DNA from: a virus
DNA: 29,666 bases
Direction: 5' to 3' (one strand)
IMG/VR virus record: IMGVR_UViG_3300017788_000120
Coordinates: 1 to 29,666 of that record
This document shows positions 2,294-29,474 of this stretch, one piece after another. The stretch's first letter is position 1, and each line of letters opens with the position of its first letter. A model generated the notes under the pieces. It was given only the letters and a program-made list of their open reading frames with translations. It did no database searches and was not told the origin of the DNA. Made by a program: the position numbers and the translations under genes.

Positions 2294-2309
2294 ACTTCTA
2301 CCTTTTCTA

Positions 2310-2348
2310 TTAGCGTTAATGCTTATTTTTATTTATCATTAACGCTAA
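2310..2348 (-). promoter_or_regulatory. 12-bp inverted repeat with a late-promoter core in its loop, upstream of the endonuclease gene
   Basis: TTAGCGTTAATG at 2310-2321 pairs perfectly with CATTAACGCTAA at 2337-2348 across a 15-base loop. The minus-strand loop edge reads GATAAATA (2337-2330), matching the T4 late core TATAAATA. Transcripts coming through nrdA would carry the whole hairpin, ending about 5 bases before the AAAAGG ribosome site. A transcript starting at the loop promoter would lack the 5' arm and be unstructured. This resembles hairpin control of endonuclease genes in T4-like phages, where early read-through RNA is translationally silent. The repeat and core are seen; the control is inferred. 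Confidence 0.7.
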
Positions 2349-9340: not shown

Positions 9341-10420
9341 TCAATGTTCCTTGGAAAAATGCGCTATACCAAAGTTGGGGTTAATTAATTTAATCAATCC
9401 CTTGCTAGTTGGGAATACCACACCTTCGCCGCCTGGACCAGCAACTGTTTCTTGTTTGAAGCCCTGAACTTGATTTTCAAATGCTCGTACCACTGCGACT
9501 TTAGCATCAAAGATACTTTTCCATATAGCATTTAACGCCATCAACCCATCACGATTTTGCGGCAGATAACCATTGCCATCACCAACCAAGTTAGTATATT
9601 GCTTCTTGTTAGCATTTTGCTGTAGCCATGTCGGTAAATCATCAGTTGTTTGTTTAGTACGTACATGATTAAGATACTGAGCAATCAACTTACGGGCCAC
9701 ATTGTCTAATCCACCAATGAATTTATCGCTTGCGGCACCATATTGCGATACCGTGGCAATTGCTTTACGAACAACAGCCAATAAAGCATTTTTATTTGGC
9801 AGTTCAAAACTATTACCAGCGTTAGGAGAAATAACGGCTACATTGCTACGATTAGTCATTGCTGATTTACCATCCCATGGTGCACCATCATATTCATGAA
9901 CTACCAGTAGCGCAACTTTACCTTGTAACAATTTCCCTAGATACGAATCTTCTGGAACTGTATACTTGACTGTAGTGGGACTAAACACATATGCGCCATT
10001 CTCTGATTTCAATCCAGTAGGATTAATAGCCATCAAATCACCCTTAAATACACCTGGGGAATTGCCAACGTTTTTCTTTAGTCCATCCCACAGTGTTTCT
10101 ATTTTGCCATACAAATCAGCACGATCAGCACCGCGTTTAGCGTCGTATTCACGCCAACCTTCTGGACTTGTGGGATATACACCTTTTGCTGGCATATATT
10201 TGTCTGTTATGAAAAATTCACCACGCTCGTTATTGCCGAAATACAGTGCGATGCCACCATCCCACTTGATAGTACCACTGCTTGGATTATCAACAATTTC
10301 TTCTAATGCCAATGCTGCCTGCATTGCTTCGTCAGACCCCAAAAATATAGCATCTTCTGGGTGCGGTATTCTTGGACCATCGCCTATTGCTTCGGCAAGA
10401 TATTCAACAAATCGTTTCAT
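9341..10420 (-). CDS. Ligase-fold (covalent nucleotidyltransferase) protein with complete KxDG
   Basis: 359 residues. Motifs of the DNA/RNA ligase and capping-enzyme superfamily are visible in order: TIKWDGGIALYFG with motif I K52-W-D-G55, GVFKGDLMAINP (residues 123-134, motif III-like), GGEGVVFPTS with E332 (motif IV) and GLIKLINP with K344 (motif V). K52 would be the residue that is adenylated or guanylated. The first 50 residues (PHPEDAIFLGSDEAMQAALALEEI) form a helical prefix. No OB-fold or DNA-binding appendage is evident. It lies next to a polymerase-beta-type nucleotidyltransferase and a paralogue lacking the lysine. AAGGAT precedes the ATG. Substrate unknown; a polynucleotide ligase or an adenylating enzyme acting on protein or RNA are alternatives. 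I believe related uncharacterised proteins occur in cyanophages. Confidence 0.7.
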   Translation of the reverse strand: MKRFVEYLAEAIGDGPRIPHPEDAIFLGSDEAMQAALALEEIVDNPSSGTIKWDGGIALYFGNNERGEFFITDKYMPAKGVYPTSPEGWREYDAKRGADRADLYGKIETLWDGLKKNVGNSPGVFKGDLMAINPTGLKSENGAYVFSPTTVKYTVPEDSYLGKLLQGKVALLVVHEYDGAPWDGKSAMTNRSNVAVISPNAGNSFELPNKNALLAVVRKAIATVSQYGAASDKFIGGLDNVARKLIAQYLNHVRTKQTTDDLPTWLQQNANKKQYTNLVGDGNGYLPQNRDGLMALNAIWKSIFDAKVAVVRAFENQVQGFKQETVAGPGGEGVVFPTSKGLIKLINPNFGIAHFSKEH

Positions 10421-11231: not shown

Positions 11232-12437
11232 TTAACGCTCACTGTATTCTATATTAGTTACCAATCTAACTATCCCGCGATCATGCCCAATAGCAACAAA
11301 CCCACCCGGTACGTTTATTTTGTAACCGTCATTGTCCTTGACGAAAACTCCAGTGTTTTCAACCTGTTTCATTTTATCAACAATCAACGTTTTTAACTCA
11401 ATCAGTTTTTTGTATACAGAAAATACACCTAGCATGGCGTTTAGATTATCTCCGATAAATTGTTCAACTTTTGCTGCTTTTTCAGCACTTTTAGGATCTT
11501 TTTCTGAATTTTGTTCTACATACTTGTCTTTATAATAGTTAATAAACTCACGAATCAATCGCATAGGATCAATCATCAATTCCCTGTCATTCATGTTATC
11601 ATGAACGAACTTACGCACATACTCAGAAAAATCTGCGTTATTGATTATTGAGTTGAATTTTATGCCATCAATTTTAGTAACCGTGGAAGCACCTTTTCGT
11701 AGCCCAATTAACACACGAGCATTTTCTTCTGGGGTAAAACTAGCAACACCTGTATAGTCCTTGTAATGTTCGTCATCAATCCATACATTTTTGACTTGTT
11801 TTAGTCCAGAAATGTTTGCTTCCATGTTAGGCATCATGTTTGTTAAACTGTTACCTTCATATGCTGTATGAAATGATATTCCGATTTTGGCTTGACTTAT
11901 TCTATTTCCTAATTCACTATCGACTATCACCGCATATGTAGTGTTATTAGGTGTGAATGTGTAAGTTTGTTTGCCATCTGTGTTAGATATTAAGATCGTA
12001 TCGTCTGTAAACAATAAATTACCCGCGATTACATTTCCTATTCTCAATGATGGCAAATACTTTAATGCTGCTTTTAGTTGTTTGGTAACTATGTCATCAT
12101 AGCCATAAAATTTATATATGTCTGCTTTTGATTTACAGACTGCTTCTTTTGTTTGTAATGCTTGCTCAGTGCCAACAAAGAAATTACCATCTTCTGGATC
12201 GATACCACAAATGATTGTAGTCGAACCATCCCAACGTGCTTTTACTTTGCCTATTTTGCCCTGTCCAGTAGCAAACATACGACGTAAATTTTCAATGTAG
12301 GTAAAAGCACGTTTTGCGCCATTAAATCCTTCACTGAAGATCAAATCTTCTAGATGCTCTATGTGAAAATCTTTACCGTTTTTGGCTTCTTGTAGCAACC
12401 ATTTAGGAGATTTGTTTTCTACTTCAAATAATTTCAT
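11232..12437 (-). CDS. Ligase-fold paralogue lacking the motif I lysine
   Basis: 401 residues. It shares layout with the protein at 9341-10420: a helical prefix with HIEHLEDLIFSEGFNGAKRA, then KARWDGSTTIICGIDPEDGNFFVGTEQ. Here the motif I position is R68-W-D-G71, so Arg replaces the nucleotide-accepting Lys (K66 is two residues off). Later parts give possible motif IV (KIDGIKFNSI) and a long helical C-terminus (residues about 285-365, Lys/Glu-rich). It is either a pseudoenzyme that binds a nucleotide or partner without covalent chemistry, or the nucleophile has moved. CAGGAA precedes the ATG. Homology to the neighbour is judged by eye and is moderate. Confidence 0.65.
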   Translation of the reverse strand: MKLFEVENKSPKWLLQEAKNGKDFHIEHLEDLIFSEGFNGAKRAFTYIENLRRMFATGQGKIGKVKARWDGSTTIICGIDPEDGNFFVGTEQALQTKEAVCKSKADIYKFYGYDDIVTKQLKAALKYLPSLRIGNVIAGNLLFTDDTILISNTDGKQTYTFTPNNTTYAVIVDSELGNRISQAKIGISFHTAYEGNSLTNMMPNMEANISGLKQVKNVWIDDEHYKDYTGVASFTPEENARVLIGLRKGASTVTKIDGIKFNSIINNADFSEYVRKFVHDNMNDRELMIDPMRLIREFINYYKDKYVEQNSEKDPKSAEKAAKVEQFIGDNLNAMLGVFSVYKKLIELKTLIVDKMKQVENTGVFVKDNDGYKINVPGGFVAIGHDRGIVRLVTNIEYSER

Positions 12438-13819: not shown

Positions 13820-15223
13820 TTAATCTCTATTTGTTTTAAGTGTGCCTAACAATGCTTTTAATTTAGCATTTTGAGCATTACCTTCTACTGGTTTAATCTC
13901 GCCAGTTTCACTATCAACTATGGACTTAGTCTTAATTGAACTCATGATACTGCCTATCTGTGGCTTAACATTTCCAGATGTGCCCTGAGCATCTTCGCCT
14001 GGATCACTAATTCTCAATGTATTAATATCATATTCTAGGTCAATCTTGGTACCGACACCACTACTACTACGAGTCTTCATCAACTGAATTTGATATCTGC
14101 CACGTTCACGCATAGCACGACTAGTAAAAATACCGAATACGTTGTCTGCGGTATTGATCTTACTGATACCACCACTGATATGACTATGATCAAATTCGAT
14201 TTCTTCTACTGCCGAACGATTAAGCTGACTGGCAGTTATGAGTAAAATGTTAAATTCTTTGGCCAAATTTCTTAGTTCTTCACTAACATACTTGTCTTTG
14301 ACGAATAGGTCACTTGGACTAACTTTAGCACTTACGGGCATGATCAGATCAAGATAGTCTACCATAATGAAGTCGGCACGTTTGCCAGTTTGAACCTCAA
14401 GTTCTTTAAGATACGCACGGATTTGATTAACATTACTCTGGGCGGGCATATACTTGATTCGTAGATTGCCACTCTTTTTGCCAAAGATTTTTACTTTTAC
14501 TTCTAGATCATCTAGATCTTTGAAAATCTCTTTTGTAGCAATACCAGCAATCATGCTATCCATACGCATAGCACACAGTTCTTCACTTAGTTCTAGAGTA
14601 AGATATATACCGCTTAGGCCTTGTTGTATCCAGTTAATTGCGATGTTCTGCATGAACAAACTTTTTCCACTACCACTACCGCCCGCAAAAATATTCAGTT
14701 CACCGCGATTCATACCACCGAACAATCGCTTGTCTAGTGTAGGCCAACCCGTACTTACTTGCCCATTGTTTGATTTGATCTTCATCAATCTAGCACGTGG
14801 GTCAGAAAAATAATCCGTACCCATGTCTTTGGTTAGACTGATTTGAACGGCATCTTTGATTAACTTTTCAACAGGATCAAATTCACCACGTTCAATCATA
14901 TCCGCTGCTGCTAGAATTGCTCGCTCTAGTTCATGCTTTTTGGTAAAAGCCTCAAATTCCTCCATGAACCAATCATAATGATTTTGTGTAAGTTCGGGCA
15001 CTGGTTGTAAACCTACACCCGTTACAGCACGAATTTGAGTGTGACTGGGTAGAGATCCAAACTTAGTTGAATGTTCTTTGATGAACTTGGCGGCTGATTT
15101 TACGCTCTTATGAAAGTTTTCTGGGTTGTAGATGTTTTGAACACGAACATATATTTCTGGGTTTTCTAAAACCATTTCCAGAAATAATTTTTGAAGTTCG
15201 GCACTATACTCTTTGTTACTCAT
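13820..15223 (-). CDS. 41: Replicative DNA helicase, T4 gp41/DnaB type
   Basis: 467-residue hexameric 5'-3' helicase that unwinds DNA at the phage fork with the primase encoded just upstream. Seen: an N-terminal helical domain, GWPTLDKRLFGGMNRGEL leading into Walker A GGSGSGKS (181-188), an LTLELS strand with the catalytic Glu, Walker B ADFIMVDYLDLI, the sensor strand LLITASQLNRSAVEE, an HISGG turn, then RYQIQLMKTRSSSGVG with arginine-finger-type residues. The length is close to T4 gp41 (475). The Walker A region, a known split-intein site in gp41 genes of other phages, is uninterrupted. Its start overlaps the primase gene by eight bases, the normal gp61-gp41 coupling in this order. A gap with a late promoter follows it. 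Confidence 0.95.
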   Translation of the reverse strand: MSNKEYSAELQKLFLEMVLENPEIYVRVQNIYNPENFHKSVKSAAKFIKEHSTKFGSLPSHTQIRAVTGVGLQPVPELTQNHYDWFMEEFEAFTKKHELERAILAAADMIERGEFDPVEKLIKDAVQISLTKDMGTDYFSDPRARLMKIKSNNGQVSTGWPTLDKRLFGGMNRGELNIFAGGSGSGKSLFMQNIAINWIQQGLSGIYLTLELSEELCAMRMDSMIAGIATKEIFKDLDDLEVKVKIFGKKSGNLRIKYMPAQSNVNQIRAYLKELEVQTGKRADFIMVDYLDLIMPVSAKVSPSDLFVKDKYVSEELRNLAKEFNILLITASQLNRSAVEEIEFDHSHISGGISKINTADNVFGIFTSRAMRERGRYQIQLMKTRSSSGVGTKIDLEYDINTLRISDPGEDAQGTSGNVKPQIGSIMSSIKTKSIVDSETGEIKPVEGNAQNAKLKALLGTLKTNRD

Positions 15224-16250
15224 TCTTTATTTTTTTCGTTATGATTTGGATCTTTACCGGATTAGATTCCACACTGTCTAGGATCGTTTTTAGGGTGAAC
15301 AATTTTCCATATTTCATCACTGCGTCGTTAGCATCTTTACATTCACTACGCCATGGTGGGAAACTTACACTCCAACCATACTCTATAGCACGAAGGATCA
15401 TTACTTCACCTGGCCATACTTCACGGCCCTGTTTATTGATATGTTTATCAAAATCCGGCACTACGATAACATTTTTCCCTAACGACTCTATTATATCTGC
15501 CTGCTGCTCACTTATATCATTGGTTTGTGTACTGACTCCATCTAGGCTCATGGCATCAAATGGTCCCTCAAACACTAGCACAACGGTATTTTCGGATAGT
15601 TGATTGTTTGTGTTGAAAACAAAATGTCCAGGATGATCGCTATGATATTTTGGTTTGATAGCGGACTCAATAGATCGTCCAGTGTAGCCTACGATTTTAC
15701 CTTCCCAATAGAATGGAACTAAGATTCTATAGTTTAATTTATAGTCTGGCGTAGGTGACCAGAAAAAATTATATCGGTTCAGGTCTATCGCACGATGGTG
15801 AACATATTCCACCGCACGCAGCAATTGTGGTGAACTTTCGTTAGATTCAAGTAATTCTATGATGTTTTTTGCGTCTGGTGGCAGAGATCTAGCATCAAAA
15901 GAAAATTCTTCTTGTGATGTTGTTTCTGGTGTGACGACATTTTTTAGACGAATGCTTTCAACAACTAAACGCTGTATATCGTTTTCATTAGCGCCTAGCC
16001 ATTTTAGTAATTTTCGATATTTGAAACTTAGTTGTCTGCCTGGTGTATAGCTTGTCTTGAATCCACAGTTGAAACAGTGCCAGGATACTTTGCCATCGCC
16101 ACTGGCAAGTATTCCACCTCTACCACGGGTATCTGGATTGTGTCCATTGTGTTGACAACAAACGGCATTTATGCTTATCCATCCACCTTGGGTGCGTTTT
16201 TGTTTGCCTGGAATTAAAGATAGTGTGAAATCGCTGACGACGGTATACAT
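15216..16250 (-). CDS. 61: DNA primase, T4 gp61 type
   Basis: 344 residues. A CHC2-type zinc-binding N-terminus is visible (CCQHNGHN at 31-38 with Cys and His, and WHCFNCG with C59 and C62), as is a TOPRIM-like catalytic core (VVLVFEGPFDAMSLDG with the acidic E-G-x-x-D, and VIVVPDFDKH with D-x-D). It makes RNA primers for lagging-strand synthesis and forms the primosome with gp41. The length matches T4 gp61 (342). The ATG at 16250 has no clear ribosome site, and a strong AT-rich hairpin lies five bases upstream, which may limit translation from read-through transcripts of the tail-fibre genes. Confidence 0.93.
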   Translation of the reverse strand: MYTVVSDFTLSLIPGKQKRTQGGWISINAVCCQHNGHNPDTRGRGGILASGDGKVSWHCFNCGFKTSYTPGRQLSFKYRKLLKWLGANENDIQRLVVESIRLKNVVTPETTSQEEFSFDARSLPPDAKNIIELLESNESSPQLLRAVEYVHHRAIDLNRYNFFWSPTPDYKLNYRILVPFYWEGKIVGYTGRSIESAIKPKYHSDHPGHFVFNTNNQLSENTVVLVFEGPFDAMSLDGVSTQTNDISEQQADIIESLGKNVIVVPDFDKHINKQGREVWPGEVMILRAIEYGWSVSFPPWRSECKDANDAVMKYGKLFTLKTILDSVESNPVKIQIITKKIKNE

Positions 16251-17903: not shown

Positions 17904-18647
17904 TTATAATCTATTCATAGATAGTAGCATATTGTCTATGAACGGTATGTTTTGAAATCTGTTCACAAAGATGTTAACGTCTAGCACTGAAATTAAGGCG
18001 CCAGTATTAGCGGAATTCAAGGCTCCAGTTTTCCACATAACTGCTACATACTCTGAGTTTAAGAATGGTCCCGTAATCGGTGTTCCGTTACCTATTGATG
18101 TAAATGTTCCAGGTCTAGCAAATGTTACTCTATTGCTACTATTTGCTAATAAAAATGTTGGATCAACGGTGACTTCAATACTTGAACTGCTATAATCAGT
18201 TGAGCCACGAACCACACTACCACCGCCTATATTTGTTATAAAATCATCAATAGAACTATCACGGGCGCCAAAATTGCTATTTTCACCCAGAATAAACATC
18301 GAACCACCATACTGTAAGTATTGATACAATCTGATAGTTGGATTGTTAGGACTTGTTGAGTATGGACTAGCGTAACCAATGTCCCATAAATGGGTGTAGT
18401 CAAAAAGATTGTATGTTAATAAATCTTCGTAACTAGTAACAAGTATGCTATCGTATCCTAGAGCCGCTTCACGGGCTGCTATTACTGGATATATATCAGT
18501 TTCTGGATCAATTGCGCCAGACGCATAGTAGTTTGTATCACCACCTGGGCCATTGGTCAATGGATCATAGAATACTATGGCAGTTCGCTTATAACCGCGA
18601 TCAGGTTGTAAGAATCCAAAACCTAATCTGTTAATTCCATGAAACAT
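17904..18647 (-). CDS. Tail-fibre-cassette protein of unknown function, 247 residues
   Basis: ATG at 18647 overlaps the stop of the collagen-like gene (TGATG), which decides the start; a TTG three bases upstream is not needed. The protein alternates hydrophobic strands with helices in a Rossmann-like pattern (RTAIVFYDPL, AALGYDSILVTSYEDLLTY, YDYTHLWDIGY). It includes YLQYGGSMFILGENSNFG followed by IDDFITNIGGG, which resembles the strand-loop-helix parts of glutamine-amidotransferase-like (ThuA/GATase) folds. No catalytic Cys is at the nucleophile position. Position in the fibre cassette suggests a virion adhesin or fibre-binding protein. The resemblance is weak. Confidence 0.7.
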   Translation of the reverse strand: MFHGINRLGFGFLQPDRGYKRTAIVFYDPLTNGPGGDTNYYASGAIDPETDIYPVIAAREAALGYDSILVTSYEDLLTYNLFDYTHLWDIGYASPYSTSPNNPTIRLYQYLQYGGSMFILGENSNFGARDSSIDDFITNIGGGSVVRGSTDYSSSSIEVTVDPTFLLANSSNRVTFARPGTFTSIGNGTPITGPFLNSEYVAVMWKTGALNSANTGALISVLDVNIFVNRFQNIPFIDNMLLSMNRL

Positions 18648-19666
18648 CAAGCATATCCCGTAGTTAGTGCTACATAGTAGCGTGAACCATCATAGAACAT
18701 ATTCAGCATATCAATACTACTAGCATTGAAACTCAACACTTTGTAATTACTTGCGAATTTATAGTTAGAATTTGCTGACAATGTTCTACCACCCGTACCA
18801 TCTTGAGTAAATATTAACGTTAAACTTTGTCCAATGTCCATGTTTGTCGGAGTTTCTAGACTGATGTTTCCAGTTAGTGTCGCCGTTTGTACAACTGCTA
18901 ATGCTCTGTTAGGCGTAAAAGTGCCGTTGATTGAACCATGATCATATATTGTAGATTGTGTGCCCTCAATCGTTAGCGTAACGGCATCACCAACATTTGT
19001 AGTAACAACGCCATTACCAGCAAAATTTAAACTTAATAAGTTAGTAGTGACAACAACACTATCACTCTCTAGTGTTATACTAGGACCTTGTGGTCCCTGT
19101 GGTCCAGATGGTCCCTGAGGTCCAGGAACTGTACTAGCATCACCTTGTGGTCCCTGAATACCCTGTGGTCCCTGTGGCCCTTGTGGTCCTTGAACTCCCT
19201 GTGGCCCTTGTGGTCCTTCTAAACCAATTACACCTTGTGGTCCTTGTGGTCCTTGTGGTCCTTGAAGACCAGTAGGACCTTGTGGACCTTCAACACCTAT
19301 TACACCCTGTGGTCCCTGTGGACCTTGAATGCCCTGTAATCCTTGTGGTCCCATGGGACCTTGAGGTCCCTGAGGTCCCTGAGGTCCTTGAGGTCCCTGA
19401 GGTCCTTCTATACCTATCGGACCAATTGGTCCAGGAGCTCCCTGTGGACCGGTAGGTCCCTGTGGCCCTTGTGATCCCTGCGAGCCCGTTGGCCCTTGTG
19501 GTCCCTGTGATCCTGTCGTACCCTGCGGGCCTTGCGTACCTCGCACACCAGCAGGCCCAGTTGGTCCCTGCGGTCCTTGAATGCCCTGTGGTCCCTGTGG
19601 TCCCTGTGGTCCCTGTGGACCTCTAGGTCCTTGTGGCCCTGCTGGTATGTCTAATAAACTGTCCAT
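18647..19666 (-). CDS. Collagen-like tail fibre protein
   Basis: About 339 residues. From residue ~8 to ~197 it is an almost unbroken run of Gly-X-Y triplets dominated by GPQ ([24 protein letters not shown]), which would form a collagen triple helix. The last ~140 residues are a beta-rich domain ([53 protein letters not shown]), a module widespread at the ends of phage fibres. The protein is therefore a trimeric rod with a C-terminal tip. Two adjacent ATGs exist; the second (19666) has better spacing from AAGGATT. The stop overlaps the next gene. The GPQ bias is strong and the DNA is correspondingly repetitive, so indels and repeat-length variation are expected here. Confidence 0.92.
19075..19645. 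repeat. Repetitive DNA encoding the Gly-X-Y region
   Basis: Short in-frame direct repeats of the type TGGTCCCTG/TGGTCCTTG recur in nine-base units. It is a coding repeat with alternating synonymous codons, not a CRISPR array: there are no unique spacers. Confidence 0.85.
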
Positions 19667-19675
19667 CATTAATCC

Positions 19676-20212
19676 TTAAATGTTTCCAAAATCATATATA
19701 GCACTAATTGTAGGGTCAGTAATTTGTCCAAGATCAAGATTAACTGGAGGATCAATTGGATATGCTGAATTACTTAAAAATATCTGTCCTACCGCACCAT
19801 AATTATCGTCTACATATGTCACAACATTACCATACACTGAGTTAATCTTCACATTATATGTATAGTTTTCTCTATCTAATTGAACAAGATCGTTGCCAGA
19901 AATAATTGTGTATCCAAGACCAGCCGAACTATTGTATATCGTGATATTAGAACTCAAAACCGTATTTGCGTTCGCAAATACATAATCATCAACTATGTTA
20001 AAAGTTGCTGGTCTATTTCCTAAGTTTATAGGTTTTTGTTCGGAATTCAAAAATTGAAATTTAAGAACATTGTTAATATTCTTATACATTTGTATTGTTC
20101 TTGTATACACAACTCTGTTCCTTTGATCGGTGTTTATGTCTAATCCAGTAGCGGATACATCAAACTGTATCTCTATGGTATTATCATAATAATAACTAGT
20201 TATGGTTTGCAT
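19676..20212 (-). CDS. Probable baseplate/fibre-attachment protein, Ig-like
   Basis: 178 residues from the ATG at 20212; an upstream in-frame TTG at 20260 is less likely. Beta-rich, with [43 protein letters not shown] and [14 protein letters not shown]. The N-terminal half resembles the immunoglobulin-like domains of phage baseplate-upper/fibre-anchor proteins, in which [17 protein letters not shown] is typical. It is the first gene of the fibre cassette and has a late core just upstream, with a very short leader. A structural role is likely but the family is not certain. Confidence 0.72.
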
Positions 20213-20216
20213 ACTG

Positions 20217-20225
20217 GTATTTATT
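20217..20225 (-). promoter_or_regulatory. Late-promoter core AATAAATAC (minus strand)
   Basis: Minus-strand AATAAATAC lies four bases before the fibre-cassette ATG at 20212. It is the mirror of AATAAATAC at 20240-20248 on the plus strand, giving a perfect 9-bp inverted repeat. The start point would be close to the ATG, so the leader is very short. Confidence 0.5.
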
Positions 20226-20239
20226 ACAAACGTCCCATA

Positions 20240-20248
20240 AATAAATAC
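20240..20248 (+). promoter_or_regulatory. Late-promoter core AATAAATAC (plus strand)
   Basis: Plus-strand core 28 bases before the ATG of the only rightward gene. It is back to back with the minus-strand core, which makes this a divergent late promoter pair. A second core, CTAAATA, lies at 20264-20270. Confidence 0.55.
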
Positions 20249-20275
20249 TCTTCTATCCAAACACTAAATAAAACG

Positions 20276-20650
20276 ATGGAAGAAATATATAAAGAATTAT
20301 TAGATTCCTATCCATTTTTAAGTTATGTAACTTATGGCGGACAGGAATATATTGGAATAATCCAAAATCTAGATGATGTAATTACCAGTATTTATGACTA
20401 TGGAATGATTAAATTCCAAGATCAGAAAAAACTGTATCTAGAATTAGGCGAAATCTGGTGGTGGGAAAGCAACAGATTAGTGCCTATCAATATTTTTTTG
20501 AAAACTGATTGGGTTCAGTTTCGCGGGACGCTAAAAACTTTTAACAGTAAAGACGTAGTTATAAAGTATGGTCCCGTGCTTAGTTTAAAAGAAGCCGCGC
20601 AAAAACGCAGCAAAAAGAAATCAATTACCCTAGTTAGAAAGATTAGTTAA
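20276..20650 (+). CDS. Conserved phage protein of unknown function, only plus-strand gene
   Basis: 124 residues from the ATG at 20276; an upstream in-frame ATG at 20207 would run through the divergent promoter and is rejected. It is a compact, aromatic-rich protein: GGQEYIGIIQNLDDVITSIYDY, LELGEIWWWESNRLVPINIFL, then a Lys/Arg-rich tail (KEAAQKRSKKKSITLVRK). The WWWESN-to-KDVVIKYGP part reads as a small beta barrel. The basic tail suggests nucleic-acid or anionic-surface contact. I recall similar uncharacterised proteins in marine T4-like phages. It converges on the PolIII-alpha-like gene, overlapping its end by 21 bases. Confidence 0.8.
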   Translation: MEEIYKELLDSYPFLSYVTYGGQEYIGIIQNLDDVITSIYDYGMIKFQDQKKLYLELGEIWWWESNRLVPINIFLKTDWVQFRGTLKTFNSKDVVIKYGPVLSLKEAAQKRSKKKSITLVRKIS

Positions 20651-21220
20651 CAAATTAATATGAACCGCAGTAAGATGTGCGTATGCTACTGCGTGTGATT
20701 TCTTATAATAGTATGTACCATCTACTGGTTTATCCCAGATAGTTTTAGCAACATCAGTCCATGATTTCCCAATCAGATGACGTTTTGATGGTCGAATAAT
20801 ACTTAAAAACATTGCCAGAGTAATTATGGAATTAACCTTTTCTTGCATTTTAATTAATGTATCGTAATGGTTACCTATATGAATTACACGTTCACAAAAC
20901 TCACGATCATATATTTTATTCCAATCTGGTGTTTGTGCTAACAGTTGATCTAGATGCTTCTGTGATTTTATTAGGCTATACACATGAACATTTAGAAAAT
21001 CTAACTTAACATAGCCACGTTCTTCGGCTGCTTCATAATCTATACTAGCATAGCCAGACAGTGGATTTTTAGGTATATCAGTAAAGTAAACACCAGTATT
21101 GTGTTTAGACCAGTTACCATCACGATTGATTGCGGCAGGAATATGCTTAAGTAATTTCAACGCATCATCTCGTGATGCAAAATCTATATCAATATCACTG
21201 GTAAACTTTGTGGTAGTCAT
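20630..21220 (-). CDS. Miniature C-family (PolIII-alpha-like) polymerase-related protein
   Basis: 196 residues carrying, in order, motifs of the bacterial DNA polymerase III alpha palm. SDIDIDFASR (8-17, with D11 and D13) matches the PDxDxDF catalytic pair. VKLDFLNVHVYSLI (71-84, with D74) matches the KxDFLGL strand with the third aspartate. SIITLAMFLSIIRP (131-144) matches the DIxAxxALxRPG segment. YYKKSHAVAYA (171-181) matches the fingers motif FNKSHAxAYA. The real enzyme is about 1100 residues, with far more between these motifs. There is no PHP, OB or beta-binding domain. It may be a reduced polymerase, a remnant palm used as binding protein, or a nucleotidyltransferase. The match is by eye, but four ordered motifs are hard to get by chance. 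Confidence 0.72.
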   Translation of the reverse strand: MTTTKFTSDIDIDFASRDDALKLLKHIPAAINRDGNWSKHNTGVYFTDIPKNPLSGYASIDYEAAEERGYVKLDFLNVHVYSLIKSQKHLDQLLAQTPDWNKIYDREFCERVIHIGNHYDTLIKMQEKVNSIITLAMFLSIIRPSKRHLIGKSWTDVAKTIWDKPVDGTYYYKKSHAVAYAHLTAVHINLLTNLSN

Positions 21221-21432
21221 ATAGATAGTTTAAACCAACAGGCCACCGCGGGATCTACAAAATTAAAGATAACATGTCTGGGTTCTACCGGTGCTGGATC
21301 AAATGAAAAACTACGAATATGATTTTTATACTCCCATGTATAGTCATCCCTATCGTAGCCTGCGCTCTTCAATTTATCCAGCAATGCGTAAGCATCTGTA
21401 ATTCCATCTACATCAATTCTAACTGAAGTCAT
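21217..21432 (-). CDS. Small phage protein of unknown function
   Basis: 71 residues, MTSVRIDVDGITDAYALLDKLKSAGYDRDDYTWEYKNH then a beta-rich C-terminus with FNFVDPAVACWFKL. The start is set by an ATGA overlap with the zinc-finger gene stop (21429-21432), and the end overlaps the PolIII-alpha-like gene start by four bases. The beta-alpha-beta arrangement is ferredoxin-like. It is coupled to both neighbours, so it may be a partner of the polymerase-like protein. Confidence 0.7.
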   Translation of the reverse strand: MTSVRIDVDGITDAYALLDKLKSAGYDRDDYTWEYKNHIRSFSFDPAPVEPRHVIFNFVDPAVACWFKLSI

Positions 21433-22169
21433 AATCCTGCTTCCCTCAATGCTGATTTCAACCACCGAATTTCTTCAACGTTATCTTTGAATTTTTTCTG
21501 CCAACATTCCGGATCAATCCATGGCAAAATTAGATCAACTTGTTCAGCATTTAGACTATCCAAAAAATCTATGCCGCTATCACAATTATACACGATCCAT
21601 GGACTGATACGTCCATTCCTGATATGAGAAACAATTCTGTTTTTAGATCCGTGACGAAAATAGTTACTGAAATTATTATCTAGAACTGGGTCAGCATCAG
21701 CATAACTCTGCATTTCTTTGAAACCACGCTCAAGAGCATCCTCGATTGATTCCTTAGGCAAGTATGATTTCAGCCACTCAACATAAAAATCTTCTTTGGT
21801 CCACTGATCTAGGCGTTTGTTGTTTTTAAGCAACCATGCTGTAAAACTGGCAAAATTTACTGTTCTGATGCTTACTTGATATCTGCCATACTTAACGAAT
21901 GCTATGTAAAAGTCACTGTTAACAAAATCTTCATAATTTTTATCACGAATATTGCCCTGAGTTGTCTCATAGAACTTTAGATATGCTTGAAAACCTAACT
22001 GAACTCCTTGCTCTTTTTCTTGGGTAAATCTACGCTTACGTTCACACATATGAGTGGTCAGTGTGGATTCACGCACAAATGCTTTACCACAATACTTACA
22101 CACATGTGATGCTACGACCTGAGTATGTTTACTCATTTCAACAAAAGCATTAACAATTTCAGCAAGCAT
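21429..22169 (-). CDS. C2H2 zinc-finger protein of unknown function
   Basis: 246 residues. Near the N-terminus HVCKYCGKAFVRESTLTTHMCERKRR is a single C2H2-like finger (C-x2-C-x12-H, then Cys instead of a second His). A basic stretch follows. The remainder is mostly helical with many aromatic residues (FYIAFVKYGRYQVSIRTVNFASFTAWL, EDFYVEWLKSYLPKESIEDALERGF, GSKNRIVSHIRNGRISPWIVYNCDSG, IDPECWQKKF). AGGATAGA precedes the ATG. Single zinc fingers at the N-terminus are frequent in phage DNA-binding proteins, so DNA binding in replication or transcription is likely. No T4 gene is recognised. Confidence 0.78.
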   Translation of the reverse strand: MLAEIVNAFVEMSKHTQVVASHVCKYCGKAFVRESTLTTHMCERKRRFTQEKEQGVQLGFQAYLKFYETTQGNIRDKNYEDFVNSDFYIAFVKYGRYQVSIRTVNFASFTAWLLKNNKRLDQWTKEDFYVEWLKSYLPKESIEDALERGFKEMQSYADADPVLDNNFSNYFRHGSKNRIVSHIRNGRISPWIVYNCDSGIDFLDSLNAEQVDLILPWIDPECWQKKFKDNVEEIRWLKSALREAGL

Positions 22170-22170
22170 T

Positions 22171-22641
22171 CTATCCTAGTTCTTTTTTGATATCAGCATC
22201 CGACATACCATGTTCGATGGCAAGATCTATCAGATCCTGATCGGTATTTAGTTCTGCTAGTAATTCAATATCTTTGAGTTTATGTGTTGGATACAATTTT
22301 AACAGAAATTTGATTTTTTTGCTACTGTCTTTGCCTGATTTTTTCTTCGCGGCTAACCAATAGTGACGTTGATTGCCAAAGTTTGGACTAATCGCAGTCA
22401 AAGTTAGCCACTGTAATTTTGGATGTTTGTTCAACTCAAAAAAGTTTACATTTACGTATTCATTGGTTGCTCGTAAGTACCATTCCTGTAAGTCAATTGA
22501 TCCTTCAACATTGGCGCCATACTTTAGCAAAATATATGCGCTAAATTTCTTCCGTTCTTCATCATCAAAACTGTCGTAAAAGTCACGATTTTTACGATTT
22601 AAGTTTGATAGTTCGTTACTGAGACTTAGTTTATCACTCAT
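22171..22641 (-). CDS. Conserved phage protein of unknown function, 156 residues
   Basis: Start at the ATG in an ATGA overlap with the previous stop (22638-22641). Helical protein: MSDKLSLSNELSNLNRKNRDFYDSFDDEERKKF, then YILLKYGANVEGS, NEYVNVNFFELNKHPKLQWLTL, and a C-terminus LAIEHGMSDADIKKELG that looks like a small helical tail. I recall the same protein among core genes of marine T4-like phages, next to replication genes, where it remains uncharacterised. A replication accessory role is only suggested by its neighbours; I checked it against T4 gp62 from memory and saw no match. Confidence 0.75.
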   Translation of the reverse strand: MSDKLSLSNELSNLNRKNRDFYDSFDDEERKKFSAYILLKYGANVEGSIDLQEWYLRATNEYVNVNFFELNKHPKLQWLTLTAISPNFGNQRHYWLAAKKKSGKDSSKKIKFLLKLYPTHKLKDIELLAELNTDQDLIDLAIEHGMSDADIKKELG

Positions 22642-22790
22642 GTTTGATCTTTGGGAGGATATTGATAGCCATACTGTGCGTATATCCACCGAACAAATAT
22701 TTCTATTTGTTCACTATTTTCTGGATAACTCTCTACGAAAATTTTAGACAGTCTATCTATCGTCTGGACTAATTCTGGTTCAGTATACAT
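22638..22790 (-). CDS. Very small phage protein of unknown function
   Basis: 50 residues, MYTEPELVQTIDRLSKIFVESYPENSEQIEIFVRWIYAQYGYQYPPKDQT: two amphipathic helices and a Pro/Tyr-rich tail. The ATG is one base after the upstream stop. Short, but locked into the operon by the two-sided overlaps and spacing. Function unknown. Confidence 0.65.
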   Translation of the reverse strand: MYTEPELVQTIDRLSKIFVESYPENSEQIEIFVRWIYAQYGYQYPPKDQT

Positions 22791-22791
22791 G

Positions 22792-23298
22792 TTACCACGC
22801 TTTGGTGTAATTAACGATTTCACATTGTCTACTGATATCTTTTACAAAGTAGACACATAGTGATCCCTCAGTTCCAGTTTCTAGTGGCACTGCTAATAAT
22901 TGACCAGATTTTAGTTTAGGGAAATACCATTTTACATCCTGATAGATATCGACTACTTCAACTGGTAGAAATGCTGGTCTAAAACTTGATAGTGGATTAA
23001 ACGCAAAAGCACTAAAACCACGATCATTAATTGATGTCAGTGGTACTACTTCTAAATCTCCAACCTCGGACTCACCAATTAATAGTTGCCAATCTATGGG
23101 CATTTTAATTATACTATTGCCTATTCGTAACACTAATGCGGGAGTATTAAAACTTTCTAAGAATATCAATGGTATAAAGAAATAATCTGGGTTTTTCGCA
23201 TCACTGTTATCTAGGACACAAAATCTAATATCATCGACCTCCTCGGGTATTTCGTTTATTTCATAACTTGAATTGTTTTCTAAAACTAATAATCTCAT
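22792..23298 (-). CDS. Conserved phage protein of unknown function next to uvsW
   Basis: 168 residues, start in an ATGA overlap with the uvsW stop (23295-23298). All-beta looking: MRLLVLENNSSYEINEIPEEVDDIRFCVLD, YFFIPLIFLESFNTPALVLRIGNSIIKMPIDWQLLIGE, then FNPLSSFRPAFLPVEVVDIYQDVKWYFPKLKSGQLLAVPL. No catalytic motif. The DWQLLIGE and LRxGxxIIxMPxxW pieces suggest a small barrel such as an OB-like or intein/hedgehog-like fold, but nothing is decisive. Coupling to uvsW hints at a recombination or fork-repair role. Confidence 0.72.
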   Translation of the reverse strand: MRLLVLENNSSYEINEIPEEVDDIRFCVLDNSDAKNPDYFFIPLIFLESFNTPALVLRIGNSIIKMPIDWQLLIGESEVGDLEVVPLTSINDRGFSAFAFNPLSSFRPAFLPVEVVDIYQDVKWYFPKLKSGQLLAVPLETGTEGSLCVYFVKDISRQCEIVNYTKAW

Positions 23299-24752
23299 TG
23301 CCAATTAACCTTTTCCATAGTGTAATTATACTCTACTTCAGTGTAGAATTCTTTTCTTTTAGTTAAATGACGCTTAGAAAACTTACAGGAACTTGTAATA
23401 TCCCAAATTTCTACATGGTCTTTATCATGTGCTTTACGAAGACCACGACCAATTGATTGAATTGTTCGGACAAAACTCTTGCCTGGTTCTATCAATACCA
23501 CATTGAATAATCTAGGTACATTGATGCCTACTGCTGCTACTTGATAAGTCGCAACGATTGTTTTACCATCGGCCAGAGCAATACTTTCATATTCTGCCTG
23601 ACGATCCTTGTTTTTGGTATTACCTGAAACAAAAACTGAGTTAGGCAATAGATCAATCAATGCTTTACCCGCTGAGATCCGATCTACTAATACTAATGTA
23701 TTGCCACTCTTGGATATTTTGTCTACTAGTCCAGCAATATACTTTACACGATCATCGTCTTCCAGTAAGAATTTTAGTTCATTTTGATAGTTCTTGAACT
23801 CACGATGATCCTGTAGTTGTACTATATTAACATGACAATTGGCCAGAACACCTTTGTCCTGTAGTTCAACTGCTGTTAACTTACTGATAACTGGACCTAT
23901 ACACACAGTCAATGCGGTAGACGCAAATTCTTCTTTTGGTATTGTACCCGTCAGGCCCCATCTAATTGGTATATGGGACATTACGCCGGATAACATTGAT
24001 TTCAGTTGATCTGCTTTGGCTCCATGAACTTCATCACATATCACACATACTACGTCTTCTAAGAAATCTCCGATTGTGTATGTAGCACTGCCATCCTGTG
24101 TATTTTTTATAATAGATAGAACACTCTGCCACGTACAAATTGTATGACGTTTGCCTGTTTCTTTACGATCACCGTAGTATACGCCAACATCTAGGCCTAA
24201 ATTGATGTAATCCGCTTCGGTTTGTGTTACCAGAGATTTATTAGGTACTATAACAATAGAACGTCCATAGTCCTGTACTGAATAACTTAGTGCTGCTGTG
24301 ATTAGTGTTTTGCCAGCACCAGTTGGAGCAACCTGAATACATTGTGGATTTTCTAAGAAGTTGTTAACAACTGCTACCTGATAATCACGTAGCATAATAG
24401 GTTGGCCTGCTAGTGTATGTTTTTCTGGCCACGTTGTAGCAGAAAATGTATCCTCGGTAATTGGTGAAAATTTGAACGAAGTGCCGTAAGTTCGCTGATC
24501 ATCAATATCAATGTCGTATCCAGCGGCATCCAGTAGTGGCAGTATTTCAGGCAGTAAATTGATGTACGAAGCACCACCAATGCTGAAGTATGATACTTTG
24601 CCACTCCAACGTCCCAGGCGCACACTGGGTAAATATCGTGCGCCTGGGATTTCATACTCAAATTTTCTACTTAAGGCACGACGCTCTGCTAAATCTAGCC
24701 CTTCTAACTTTAGATTTACTTCGTCTTTGATTATAATTTTACATTTTTTCAT
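23295..24752 (-). CDS. uvsW: UvsW-type SF2 recombination/fork-regression helicase
   Basis: 485 residues. UvsW unwinds branched DNA and R-loops, regresses forks and anneals strands, switching T4-like phages from origin- to recombination-dependent replication. Seen: an N-terminal DNA-binding part (RWSGKVSYFS), a Q-motif-like LRDYQ, Walker A APTGAGKT (142-149), the DEVH box (240-243), LTGT (motif III), VATYQVAAVGINVPR (motif V) and QSIGRGLRK (motif VI). T4 UvsW is about 503 residues, so length fits. The start overlaps the HARP-like gene by 14 bases and the stop overlaps the next gene, so its translation is linked to both neighbours. Confidence 0.95.
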   Translation of the reverse strand: MKKCKIIIKDEVNLKLEGLDLAERRALSRKFEYEIPGARYLPSVRLGRWSGKVSYFSIGGASYINLLPEILPLLDAAGYDIDIDDQRTYGTSFKFSPITEDTFSATTWPEKHTLAGQPIMLRDYQVAVVNNFLENPQCIQVAPTGAGKTLITAALSYSVQDYGRSIVIVPNKSLVTQTEADYINLGLDVGVYYGDRKETGKRHTICTWQSVLSIIKNTQDGSATYTIGDFLEDVVCVICDEVHGAKADQLKSMLSGVMSHIPIRWGLTGTIPKEEFASTALTVCIGPVISKLTAVELQDKGVLANCHVNIVQLQDHREFKNYQNELKFLLEDDDRVKYIAGLVDKISKSGNTLVLVDRISAGKALIDLLPNSVFVSGNTKNKDRQAEYESIALADGKTIVATYQVAAVGINVPRLFNVVLIEPGKSFVRTIQSIGRGLRKAHDKDHVEIWDITSSCKFSKRHLTKRKEFYTEVEYNYTMEKVNWQ

Positions 24753-25806
24753 CTTCTACTATGATTATCTTTTCTGCTGTTTTTAGCATTGTGTTTTTTC
24801 TTACACCAATCAACACTGGAGTTTGTGAAATAAAAAGTTTCACAGGCACATTTGAATCCGGCCATTGATTAACTAAATGATTTACATCGTCATGCTTGAA
24901 TTTGTGTAAGGCGCGAAATGAGTTAAGATATGAATATACCGGCGTTCTACCCACACCCTTGGCATATTCAATAATTTTCTCAAAATCAAAATCGCCTAAG
25001 TTTATCTTAGTGACTTTCCCTGTTGTTATTTTTTGTATCAGAGGATCACTACATGTTTCCGTGAACTTAGACAATACCTTTTCACTAACAGTGTAACCCA
25101 GTGTAGTTGAATAATCAATCAATTTAGATAAATTGCTATAGTTTATCTGGCCTATATTTGTGTGAATGTAATCAATCAATGACTGTTCAGCATTTGTGAT
25201 CGTCAATTCGCCATTTATTTCAGTTAGTTCAATTAGATATGGCTCAGCCTCTAACTTAATCATTTGATCATATAAATTCAGCACTTCAGCGTCATAGTTA
25301 AAGTGTAGTTCGTTACATACTACTTTGATGTAATTTAAACTATATTCAGTAAGTGGTAATACCCATGCTTTTTGATTACCATCAAAACGAGCATAGGTAT
25401 CATCAGAACTTTTTAGATTTCTGAATTTTGCGATAAGATCAGTATTGTATGGAAATTTAACTACGAATTTGTTATCATCTATACTAACACTCATGGTGTT
25501 ATTGATTTTTCTAATAGGCAACCTAAAACTATCAATATTATCTGGCATATCTATGCCATGTTTTTCTAATTGTTTACGATATTTTAGTACGATATTCTTG
25601 GCAAGTGTTGCCTGTTTTTCTGTAAAGCCCAAATTCCTAAAAAGAGTTTGATTACAGAAACTCTCAATGATATCTACATCATATCGTGCCAAACTAATAG
25701 ACGATGGCTTTTTATCAAAAACAGTAAAAATGTTTTTTACTTTGCCTACATCATAGCCACCGATGTATTCAATGTAATCTTCTACATGATCAAATTTTTT
25801 CAACAT
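24739..25806 (-). CDS. HARP-like protein encoded directly upstream of uvsW
   Basis: 355 residues. Residues about 108-165 (VSIDDNKFVVKFPYNTDLIAKFRNLKSSDDTYARFDGNQKAWVLPLTEYSLNYI) follow the HARP pattern of the annealing helicase SMARCAL1. This has a strand pair, an aromatic/LIxxFK helix, a Y-x-R-x-D-x(4)-KxW turn and a short helix. The N-terminal 60 residues and the helical C-terminal half (TIGQINYSNLSKLIDYSTTLGYTVSEKVL) are not recognised. HARP domains direct SNF2 helicases to annealing and fork regression, which is also UvsW's activity. Here the domain is on a separate protein overlapping uvsW by 14 bases. Similarity is by eye; the functional link is inferred. Confidence 0.68.
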   Translation of the reverse strand: MLKKFDHVEDYIEYIGGYDVGKVKNIFTVFDKKPSSISLARYDVDIIESFCNQTLFRNLGFTEKQATLAKNIVLKYRKQLEKHGIDMPDNIDSFRLPIRKINNTMSVSIDDNKFVVKFPYNTDLIAKFRNLKSSDDTYARFDGNQKAWVLPLTEYSLNYIKVVCNELHFNYDAEVLNLYDQMIKLEAEPYLIELTEINGELTITNAEQSLIDYIHTNIGQINYSNLSKLIDYSTTLGYTVSEKVLSKFTETCSDPLIQKITTGKVTKINLGDFDFEKIIEYAKGVGRTPVYSYLNSFRALHKFKHDDVNHLVNQWPDSNVPVKLFISQTPVLIGVRKNTMLKTAEKIIIVEDEKM

Positions 25807-26336
25807 TATGATAAATCCGCATCATATGATTGAAGAATTTTATTTGCCCACTCAAACGAAATCTTTGCTTCATCAACTAAATCTATATCCAACTTTTGTT
25901 CTAGTTTTTGAATTAATTGAGCACGATTTGGAAATGTTAAACTAGGACTATTGATGCCTAAAACACGATTGATCATCTGACCACCATACATATCACCCAT
26001 ATGCCACACATACAGGTGTGCGAGAATTCTACGATCCTCAATAGGTATAGTGTTCAAATACTGATAATATTTTACCGTAGCATCACGATATTGAAATTTA
26101 TCTGATTGTGCCGTACATTCAGCATGTAAATCATTTTGCTTATTGATTTCAAGCATATCCTCGGTATATTGTGATGCTTCAGCAGTATCTTCTATCACTT
26201 CATAAAATAGTGATTTTTGATATACAAAATCATACCACAACTTTAGCGGCAGTTTTCTTTCAAAAATTGCCCGCATAAATTTTGTACTTTCAACTAGTAC
26301 ATGACTATCTCGGGTGTATTCTCGTAATATACTCAT
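25806..26336 (-). CDS. Heme oxygenase-like protein
   Basis: 176 residues, a little shorter than cellular enzymes (about 220-240). The proximal region DSHVLVESTKFMRAIFERKLPLKLWYDFV has the H12-x2-x-E pattern of the heme-ligating helix. LAHLYVWHMGDMYGGQMINR (residues about 105-124) carries the distal helix motif GDxxGGQ that sits over the heme. It would open heme to biliverdin with release of iron and CO. Phages of cyanobacteria carry such genes with bilin reductases, but I see no bilin reductase gene in this window. It lies in the middle of the replication operon, overlapping its upstream neighbour by four bases and its downstream neighbour by one base. Confidence 0.82.
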   Translation of the reverse strand: MSILREYTRDSHVLVESTKFMRAIFERKLPLKLWYDFVYQKSLFYEVIEDTAEASQYTEDMLEINKQNDLHAECTAQSDKFQYRDATVKYYQYLNTIPIEDRRILAHLYVWHMGDMYGGQMINRVLGINSPSLTFPNRAQLIQKLEQKLDIDLVDEAKISFEWANKILQSYDADLS

Positions 26337-27693: not shown

Positions 27694-27926
27694 ATCTGGT
27701 ATTTTTCTTTAAGATCATTGACGATTTGATCTGTTGCCCAACTAATATCTTCATTTTGCCAGTTGCTAATACCCATCAGGGCAATTTTACTGATACAACT
27801 TTGAATTAGATCTTGGCTATATTTTTCAAAAGCAACAATCACATCAACATCAGGGTCAGCAAAAATACCATTCTTTGTAATATTTAGACCCCGGGCTCGG
27901 GCATATGCGACAAAATTTTCATTCAT
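27690..27926 (-). CDS. Small helical phage protein of unknown function
   Basis: 78 residues: MNENFVAYARARGLNITKNGIFADPDVDVIVAFEKYSQDLIQSCISKIALMGISNWQNEDISWATDQIVNDLKEKY. Acidic and helical, no recognised motif. The start overlaps the RNA ligase stop by eight bases. Confidence 0.68.
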   Translation of the reverse strand: MNENFVAYARARGLNITKNGIFADPDVDVIVAFEKYSQDLIQSCISKIALMGISNWQNEDISWATDQIVNDLKEKYQI

Positions 27927-28836
27927 TCTTGGTTCCTTCAAAATACTCTCGACACCATGACAGGCGATCTTGTTCGGACAATGCCGTATATTCTACGATG
28001 TTTTCACGGATGTGATCAACGAGACCATGGTATTCCTCGTCAACACTACACTTGAAATCCTCACGCATGATTTTATCAGTGTTAGGATTACGAGCCACCC
28101 ATTTTTGTATTAGGTAGTGAGGTGACTTGATTTTAGCACTTACACCATCATCCGTATAGAATACCCAACCTTCATGACGAACTTCCCGAGCCATGTCAGA
28201 CAATCGGCCCATGTTAGTTACCACACATTCTGGCGTATAGCATCCCAATTCCGCCGACAATTCACGCAACACAAAACTATCATGCTGAACACGGCTATGC
28301 CAAGAATTTTCACGATAACCCAACAAGTATAGACCTTCCTGCTCAGGAATAATGTGCGGATCATTACGATGGCACACTTCAAACATAAAGGTCATGTTTT
28401 CCATGTCGGTACGAGCAAATACCAACTGCCAGTCTTCGTAGTTGTACTTTGTACGGATCAACTCACGAACCATGTCCACATATTCGCTATCCAGACTACC
28501 GGTAGTGCTGATCAACAAATCACCACGATACCAGGACACTGCTGCCATAAAGCCATTGACCTTACGGAAAGCAGTAACCTTGGTATCACGATGAATTACA
28601 GGCGAACGGCTCTCGATACCAAAATTAAAAATTTTTGTAAACGGGTATGACACCAGGTTGAAATCACGGTCAACTACCGCACCGCGGCACTCTTCCAAAT
28701 ATTGATCCCAAGAGTTCTTGTAGAACACCTGCTTGCTGTACTTCAGTACGCTCAGTTCAGGATAACGTTCAGAACCCCGCGCCTTTACTTGACGCGGGTT
28801 ATCCTGTACATATTGACGCAGTTCATTTTGAAACAT
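27919..28836 (-). CDS. RNA ligase, T4 Rnl1-like
   Basis: 305 residues. Order of motifs: EECRGAVVDRDFNLVSYPFTKIFNFG (the E-x-RG segment before motif I, residues 48-73), TAFRKVNGFMAAVS with the lysine nucleophile K92 in K-V-N-G (the usual third residue is Asp), TFMFEVCHRNDPHII (IIIa), HEGWVFYTDDG (IV) and SAKIKSPHYL (V). It would seal RNA breaks, for example tRNA cut by host defence nucleases. T4 Rnl1 is 374 residues, so the C-terminal domain is shorter here. AAGGG upstream as ribosome site. G+C content is clearly higher than in the tail and small-gene regions, pointing to a different origin or expression class. Confidence 0.86.
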   Translation of the reverse strand: MFQNELRQYVQDNPRQVKARGSERYPELSVLKYSKQVFYKNSWDQYLEECRGAVVDRDFNLVSYPFTKIFNFGIESRSPVIHRDTKVTAFRKVNGFMAAVSWYRGDLLISTTGSLDSEYVDMVRELIRTKYNYEDWQLVFARTDMENMTFMFEVCHRNDPHIIPEQEGLYLLGYRENSWHSRVQHDSFVLRELSAELGCYTPECVVTNMGRLSDMAREVRHEGWVFYTDDGVSAKIKSPHYLIQKWVARNPNTDKIMREDFKCSVDEEYHGLVDHIRENIVEYTALSEQDRLSWCREYFEGTKNE

Positions 28837-28841
28837 TTTAT

Positions 28842-29474
28842 TTACCCTTGAAGACCATTAGGACGAACTTGTTGATGCATCCAGTGCTTGTCAGTTTGGA
28901 CATGACCACTGCGAACCCACTTAGCCACATGGGTGTCGAATTCGCTGTAATCAAAACCTTCTGCTACACGGACAACAAACCCTTCCTTGTTTTCAACATC
29001 GAAACCTTCTGCCATACGCTCCAGAAGTTCCAGATCGAACACACCACGATACAGAACAGGAACAGATTGAATACCCAGAAGTTCAAAGAACTCTTGAGTA
29101 TCGTTCCAACTCAGGCAACGGGTGCCGTTCCAGACACTGAAACCCATGAAGTATGTGGGCAGAGCATTATAGACCACGCTATGCTGTGCATAGAGATTTT
29201 CACCACAAATACGATAACCTTGGGGAATATCGTGCTTGATAGTGGACCAAAAGTTCTTAACCCAATCACGACTAGGGTGATGACGGCTGTCAAGACTACG
29301 AGCATGGATATGATCGTAGTACATAGAGCAATTTTCACCGTCCATCTTCTCAGTGACCACAACCTCACGACCGTTCAGATAGTCCAGAGTGGTGATACGG
29401 GTATCGTCACGTTGGAGACCGTTACTGAACGGCAGATGCGGAGTTGAGGGATACTTGATAGGATTAGAGTTCAT
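28842..29474 (-). CDS. RNA ligase family protein (second RNA ligase)
   Basis: 210 residues of the RNA_ligase superfamily. Motif I is TEKMDGEN with K43-M-D-G46. Further, GYRICGENLYAQHSVVY, YFMGFSVWN (III-like), KEGFVVRV (IV) and VAKWVR (V) complete the set. This type is compact, without the C-terminal domain of Rnl1, and may repair nicked RNA. A ribosome site (AGGAGC) and a near-consensus sigma70 promoter precede it, so it is expressed early, together with the Rnl1-like gene that follows after five bases. G+C is higher than in most of the window. Confidence 0.88.
   Translation of the reverse strand: MNSNPIKYPSTPHLPFSNGLQRDDTRITTLDYLNGREVVVTEKMDGENCSMYYDHIHARSLDSRHHPSRDWVKNFWSTIKHDIPQGYRICGENLYAQHSVVYNALPTYFMGFSVWNGTRCLSWNDTQEFFELLGIQSVPVLYRGVFDLELLERMAEGFDVENKEGFVVRVAEGFDYSEFDTHVAKWVRSGHVQTDKHWMHQQVRPNGLQG

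Follow-up and report, generated by a model that had tools for sequence, protein, structure and literature searches.

A split minimal form of the alpha subunit of DNA polymerase III (Pol III) has already been described in jumbo phages by Iyer et al. 2021 (PMC7824862), in a group that includes phage Atu_ph07. A truncated Pol III alpha, 172 amino acids (aa) long in CBB, was recorded earlier in the genome papers for phages CBB and Atu_ph07 (PMC5259590 and PMC6102473; 2017 and 2018). By size and annotation, these proteins (CBB_328 and Atu_ph07 gp316) are the N-terminal half of the polymerase palm and not the protein characterized here, while the C-terminal half is left as hypothetical in many records. 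The present analysis concerns a gene at positions 20630-21220 of IMG/VR virus record IMGVR_UViG_3300017788_000120, a stretch of 29,666 nucleotides that is referred to below, at its full length, as the window. The product of this gene (the C-half) is almost certainly the C-terminal half of a Pol III alpha palm that is split between two genes, its partner in related phages being designated the N-half. The protein belongs to a kind that is already known, and no laboratory test of it was found; a sequence-only reading of the window had been aware of no functional description, although that of Iyer et al. was available. Added here to that description are the break point, the mapping of residues, the co-occurrence of the halves, models of both halves and the 141-kb phage Slicko01. 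In contrast to the phages covered by Iyer et al., the window phage is uncultivated and has its closest relatives in IMG/VR.

The C-half open reading frame (ORF) begins with ATG and comprises 196 codons on the minus strand (20630..21220). Its product matches phrog_11778 ("DNA polymerase", 197 positions) in PHROGs over residues 5-193 (E-value: 8.3e-57), while a Pfam search identified neither a polymerase domain nor a PHP domain. As the sequence-only reading had proposed, the protein carries the motifs DIDIDF (residues 9-14), KLDFLN (72-77), IITLAMFLSIIRP (132-144) and KKSHAVAYA (173-181) in the same order as bacterial DnaE. Judged from sequence comparisons, this ORF is a real gene and its motif set is not due to chance, because of the phrog_11778 match, the identity of key residues in 155/155 homologues and a low ratio of nonsynonymous to synonymous substitution rates (median dN/dS = 0.12 over 404 pairs). 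The possibility that the C-half is a degenerate remnant was rejected based on this ratio and on the invariance of its catalytic residues. Its short length (about one sixth of the 1160 aa of DnaE) and its lack of PHP, OB and clamp-binding parts had been read correctly: the chain terminates 15 residues after KKSHAVAYA, with no OB fold and no clamp- or tau-binding C-terminal region.

E. coli DnaE contains PDFDVDF (in which the first two aspartates are D401 and D403), KHAGG at 510, KFDFLG at 553, RPGP at 639 and NKSHSAAYA at 757. D401, D403 and D555 are the established catalytic residues of E. coli alpha, and the predicted counterparts in the C-half are D9, D11 and D74. The register of the first strand is fixed by the pattern PDxDxDF, which is common to E. 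coli and to the relative from Atu_ph07 (PDIDIDF). Three catalytic aspartates are thus retained (in 155/155 homologues) as first thought, but the trio had been numbered D11/D13/D74 and should be D9/D11/D74; D13 is also invariant, but its counterpart is E. coli D405. The residues invariant in all 155 viral homologues are D9, D11, D13, R17, H40, G43, K72, D74, R143, P144, K146, K173, H176 and Y180. When the C-half was compared with a DnaE alignment using hhalign (E-value: 5.8e-4), K39-H40 paired with K510-H511 and K72-x-D74 with K553-x-D555. On the minus strand of the window, the putative metal-binding strand D9-I-D11-I-D13 is encoded at 21182..21196, the KHAGG (510-514) counterpart K39-H40-N-T-G43 at 21092..21106 and K72-L-D74-F-L-N, which corresponds to K553-F-D555-FLG and includes the third catalytic aspartate, at 20990..21007. 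Further along the same strand are R143-P-S-K146 (20783..20794), matched to RPGP (639-642) by motif order and structure alignment, and KKSHAVAYA (20678..20704), the counterpart of NKSHSAAYA (757-765).

The statement that all signature motifs of the palm are present was found to be wrong. The G-x-GRGS nucleotide-binding motif, together with everything N-terminal to it, is absent from the C-half and is held by a separate protein in the relatives. Also absent, judged by motif spacing, are the thumb (28 residues from D11 to K39, against 107 from D403 to K510 in E. coli) and most of the index finger (30 residues from RPSK to KKSHA, against approximately 119 in E. coli). The C-half is therefore only the second, C-terminal half of the palm and not a complete miniature polymerase. 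It shares with the bacterial DnaE proteins (E. coli, Taq and M. tuberculosis) and PolC the palm topology, the equivalents of D401, D403 and D555 and the motifs KHAGG, K-x-DFL, RPG and KSHAxxYA. Unlike those enzymes, the phage form consists of two chains, lacks the PHP, thumb and OB parts and the clamp- and tau-binding regions, and has lost most of its index finger. The phage Pol III alpha proteins of PHROG 405, 11165 and 12219 belong to the same family and give weak profile matches at K-x-D and KSHAxxYA, but, unlike the split form, they are single long chains (780-1190 profile positions).

An AlphaFold2 model of the C-half, built from an alignment of 85 window-derived and viral sequences, has a mean predicted local distance difference test score (pLDDT) of 91.1 and a predicted template modelling score (pTM) of 0.78. 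When the whole model was compared with known structures using VIA-align 2, it aligned with E. coli alpha residues 394-780 (Z 8.6), Taq 456-837 (Z 9.7), M. tuberculosis 414-807 (Z 9.5) and PolC 966-1295 (Z 9.9). The top 13 chains were all from C-family polymerases, while the best unrelated chain reached Z 5.0 over 62 residues; similarly, the first nine matches in a Foldseek search were all Pol III alpha chains. The modelled fold is that of a C-family palm and not an unrelated one, so the proposal of palm homology stands. That the resemblance reflects genuine homology is supported by structure, profile-profile comparison and the invariant motifs.

The missing part of the palm was identified in related phages. 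When four complete phage genomes were searched with PF07733, each contained exactly one match, to model positions 18-98 only, and in each case the gene is distant from that of the C-half. The matching proteins are 169-177 residues in length and end with G-V-GRGSSVASY...EFLN/K followed by a stop, an end that corresponds to the DnaE stretch immediately preceding the catalytic strand. At each of 80 IMG/VR N-half loci, the stop follows the motif by no more than 30 residues (exactly 24 in 71/80), with the chain ending around FL[KR]; on the other side of the break, five residues precede DxDxD in 130 of the 155 C-half homologues. The N-half was also modelled with AlphaFold2 (pLDDT 91.0). Residues 75-171 of the model align with E. 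coli alpha 279-393 (Z 9.7) and M. tuberculosis 306-413 (Z 12.0), and the model also aligns with PolC 825-965, while the best unrelated chain has Z 2.5. The hhalign comparison of the N-half with DnaE (E-value: 3.8e-6) agrees with this assignment. All 51 N-half sequences compared share R140, G141 and S142, and the median dN/dS of this half (0.36 over 337 pairs) indicates purifying selection. Because the aligned region of one model ends at E. coli residue 393 and that of the other begins at 394, the two halves are adjacent, non-overlapping pieces of a single palm; as judged from these models, the cut lies between the two residues, in the segment entering the catalytic strand. A small charged ORF, probably disordered, lies 3' of the N-half gene in three phages (L085, L086 and L087). 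The products share a segment resembling MNARGD or VNAKGD and may be a further partner.

C-half relatives were identified by tblastn in 63 phage records, nearly all from T4-like jumbo phages (such as RaK2, 121Q, PA5oct and Atu_ph07), which agrees with the T4-like setting suggested earlier. The hosts of these phages include Klebsiella, Escherichia, Salmonella, Cronobacter, Pectobacterium, Erwinia, Pseudomonas, Xanthomonas, Agrobacterium and Sinorhizobium, and a profile scan of IMG/VR found at least 576 sequences related to the C-half. Both halves were found in 58 of the 62 phage records listed with either half. Two of the apparent exceptions, Slicko01 and Stenotrophomonas phage CM1, proved to encode both when searched with profiles. 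The others are PP728206, an unverified 109-kb record with a C-half and no N-half, and RAS14, a record similar to CM1 in which no search for a C-half was made. Among contigs longer than 200 kb, both halves are present in 9/10; in the tenth (G008, 348 kb), uvsW at 475-1926 points off the contig end, and the C-half locus is expected past that end. Both halves are encoded in every relative checked whose sequence is sufficiently complete. The distance between the two genes is 11 kb in Slicko01, approximately 34 kb in RaK2, approximately 114 kb in G012 and roughly 190 kb in G011. In Phosso, the C-half is XYS97594 and the N-half is encoded at 97210-97740; in RaK2, the C-half is gp411 and the N-half is encoded at 148852-149367. 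Alishewanella phage Slicko01 (OQ508956) carries both halves in a complete genome of 141 kb, below the jumbo limit. A match to the N-half in Staphylococcus phage SA 1306 Kay was rejected, as it lies in a 1073-codon frame (probably a longer polymerase) and no C-half family member is present.

Other polymerase components were also sought in the relatives. A family-B polymerase is encoded in 14/14 related genomes or contigs searched; in Slicko01, this polymerase also occupies two adjacent ORFs. No PHP match (PF02811) was found in six related genomes. Searches of the relatives for separate finger or PHP pieces gave only weak matches, those of PF17657 to the C-half itself in three of four phages. 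Three of four split-polymerase phages (RaK2, Cassandra and Atu_ph07) encode a DnaQ/epsilon-like exonuclease (PF00929), the gene for which adjoins uvsW in RaK2; neither the window nor two long contigs contained a match to it.

The split homology, the matching break point, the co-inheritance of the halves, the conservation of catalytic residues and purifying selection are directly supported by these observations. The explanation that fits them best, and that is probably correct, is the reconstitution of a C-family nucleotidyltransferase site from two subunits. The N-half (approximately 170 residues) would supply helices and the G-x-GRGS loop that binds the incoming nucleotide triphosphate. The C-half, starting at the break with the DIDIDF strand, would contribute the K-x-D strand, the metal-binding residues D9, D11 and D74 and a finger of reduced length that bears RPxK and KKSHAxxYA. 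It is likely that the two halves associate; they would bind non-covalently and rebuild one two-metal site of the polymerase-beta type. The pair is probably catalytic, in which case the site would transfer nucleotides to a DNA 3' end. It may also carry out template-directed DNA synthesis, although this is more tentative. Given that uvsW belongs to the same block as the C-half gene and that the phages have a family-B polymerase of their own, the role would probably be short, low-processivity synthesis during recombination or repair, beside the family-B enzyme.

The extent of the deletions allows other readings. With the thumb, most of the index finger and the PHP, OB and clamp-binding parts missing, and with a family-B polymerase available for genome replication, the pair could be a non-catalytic binding or regulatory module that, for example, occupies a site on the phage or host replisome or disturbs host Pol III. 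We consider this unlikely, since the metal-binding aspartates and the palm lysine, histidine and arginine positions do not vary among the C-half homologues and the RGS residues of the N-half are likewise fixed; a purely structural module would not need such residues. It is also rather unlikely, if somewhat easier to accept, that the rebuilt site falls short of a true polymerase and is a nucleotidyltransferase that works without a template or over very short patches (in end tailing, or in the filling of nicks or gaps). Little template grip is left after loss of the thumb and much of the finger, and the fold class is common to the palm and to template-independent nucleotidyltransferases. The retained motifs, including KKSHAxxYA of the finger, are however specific to DnaE/PolC, and the adjoining conserved zinc-finger protein and helicase could supply DNA binding. 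The sequence-only reading had regarded the 196-residue protein by itself as a minimal C-family polymerase core. This is highly improbable: three catalytic aspartates and the finger motifs do occur in one chain, but that chain holds only the C-terminal half of the palm, and the N-half is a separate gene in the relatives. An apparent split intein in nrdA of the same window might suggest that the polymerase gene was fractured and that the halves are joined after translation. Joining of this type was rejected, and we give it almost no credence, because the N-half ends at approximately FL[KR], the C-half begins five residues before its first catalytic aspartate and an intein segment is found in neither.

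Several points weigh against the favored reading, that of a two-subunit C-family active site. PDB sequence searches with the single C-half protein and with a C-half profile found no polymerase, so sequence by itself makes a weak case for kinship, which is carried by motifs, profile-profile comparison and structure; the Foldseek E-values for the C-half model are themselves modest (2e-3 to 0.2). With the thumb gone and little of the index finger left (the E. coli segment with GGADMLRRAMGKKK is among the parts lost), the template grip and the triphosphate contacts must differ from those of DnaE. The N-half was not found in the window, a 29.7-kb fragment, and that of the window's own phage is presumed from the relatives to lie outside it. 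Finally, a literature search with few subscription papers within reach returned no experimental study of the split Pol III.

The C-half gene belongs to a conserved block that consists of uvsW, phrog_11279, phrog_11758, a zinc-finger protein (phrog_11058), a small ORF, the C-half and the convergent phrog_11637. The order is the same in RaK2, Phosso, Atu_ph07 and Cassandra, phages ranging from those of Klebsiella to those of Sinorhizobium, and the window matches it. On the minus strand, this replication/recombination block starts with the UvsW-type DNA helicase (23295..24752), followed by the phrog_11279 (22792..23304), phrog_11758 (22171..22689) and zinc-finger-containing phrog_11058 (21429..22169) proteins. 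The small ORF directly upstream of the C-half (21217..21465, minus strand) encodes 82 aa from a GTG or 71 aa from an internal ATG and overlaps the C-half start by four bases; RaK2 and Phosso have small ORFs at the matching place, which are its counterparts by position. On the opposite (plus) strand, the phrog_11637 gene (20207..20650), a conserved neighbour of unknown function, overlaps the C-half 3' end by 21 bases, and its true start is probably an internal ATG at residue 24 of the listed ORF. The gene encoding the C-half itself (20630..21220, minus strand) contributes the predicted metal- and template-binding half of the palm.

Beyond this block, the window contains tail-fibre genes and then genes for a T4 gp61-type DNA primase (15216..16250, minus strand; phrog_47, E-value: 4.5e-35) and a T4 gp41-type, DnaB-like replicative helicase (13820..15223, minus strand; phrog_19, E-value: 1e-71; PF03796). 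A collagen-like repeat tail-fibre protein is encoded between the C-half locus and the primase (18647-19669), where RaK2 has no gene so annotated. A heme-oxygenase-like protein (PF01126, E-value: 5.5e-12) is encoded at 25806-26336, just upstream of the uvsW block, and two unlike RNA ligases, of the RnlA (PF09511) and PF09414 types, are adjacent at 27919-29474. Two DUF6267 proteins (9341-10420 and 11232-12437) are separated by one ORF. The gene for the ribonucleotide reductase large subunit (nrdA) is split within 778-4542. The part at 2329-4542 ends in ...MALMPAE followed by a cysteine-initiated segment of approximately 110 residues with a weak intein match, while the part at 778-1311 begins with approximately 35 residues ending in KSHN, after which TSAQISNATNGIEPP is the natural continuation. 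The arrangement looks like a split intein, and the 330-residue ORF between the halves (1301-2293) possibly encodes an HNH-type endonuclease.

The split-polymerase idea has been in print since 2021 and can be tested directly with the exact break point, the list of residues and the matching models of the two halves. It is plausible, though tentative, that two small phage proteins from widely separated genes combine in trans to form an active C-family polymerase of approximately 370 residues that has no thumb, is the smallest of its kind and acts alongside a family-B replicase. In bacteria, the replicase is a large protein made as one chain. If the proposal is true, two subunits and little more suffice to build a C-family active site, which hundreds of phages keep split, and the split form could either represent the bacterial replicase before fusion or be a reduced derivative of it. 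These phages would then offer a small system in which to ask how the C family arose and why phages keep two kinds of DNA polymerase.
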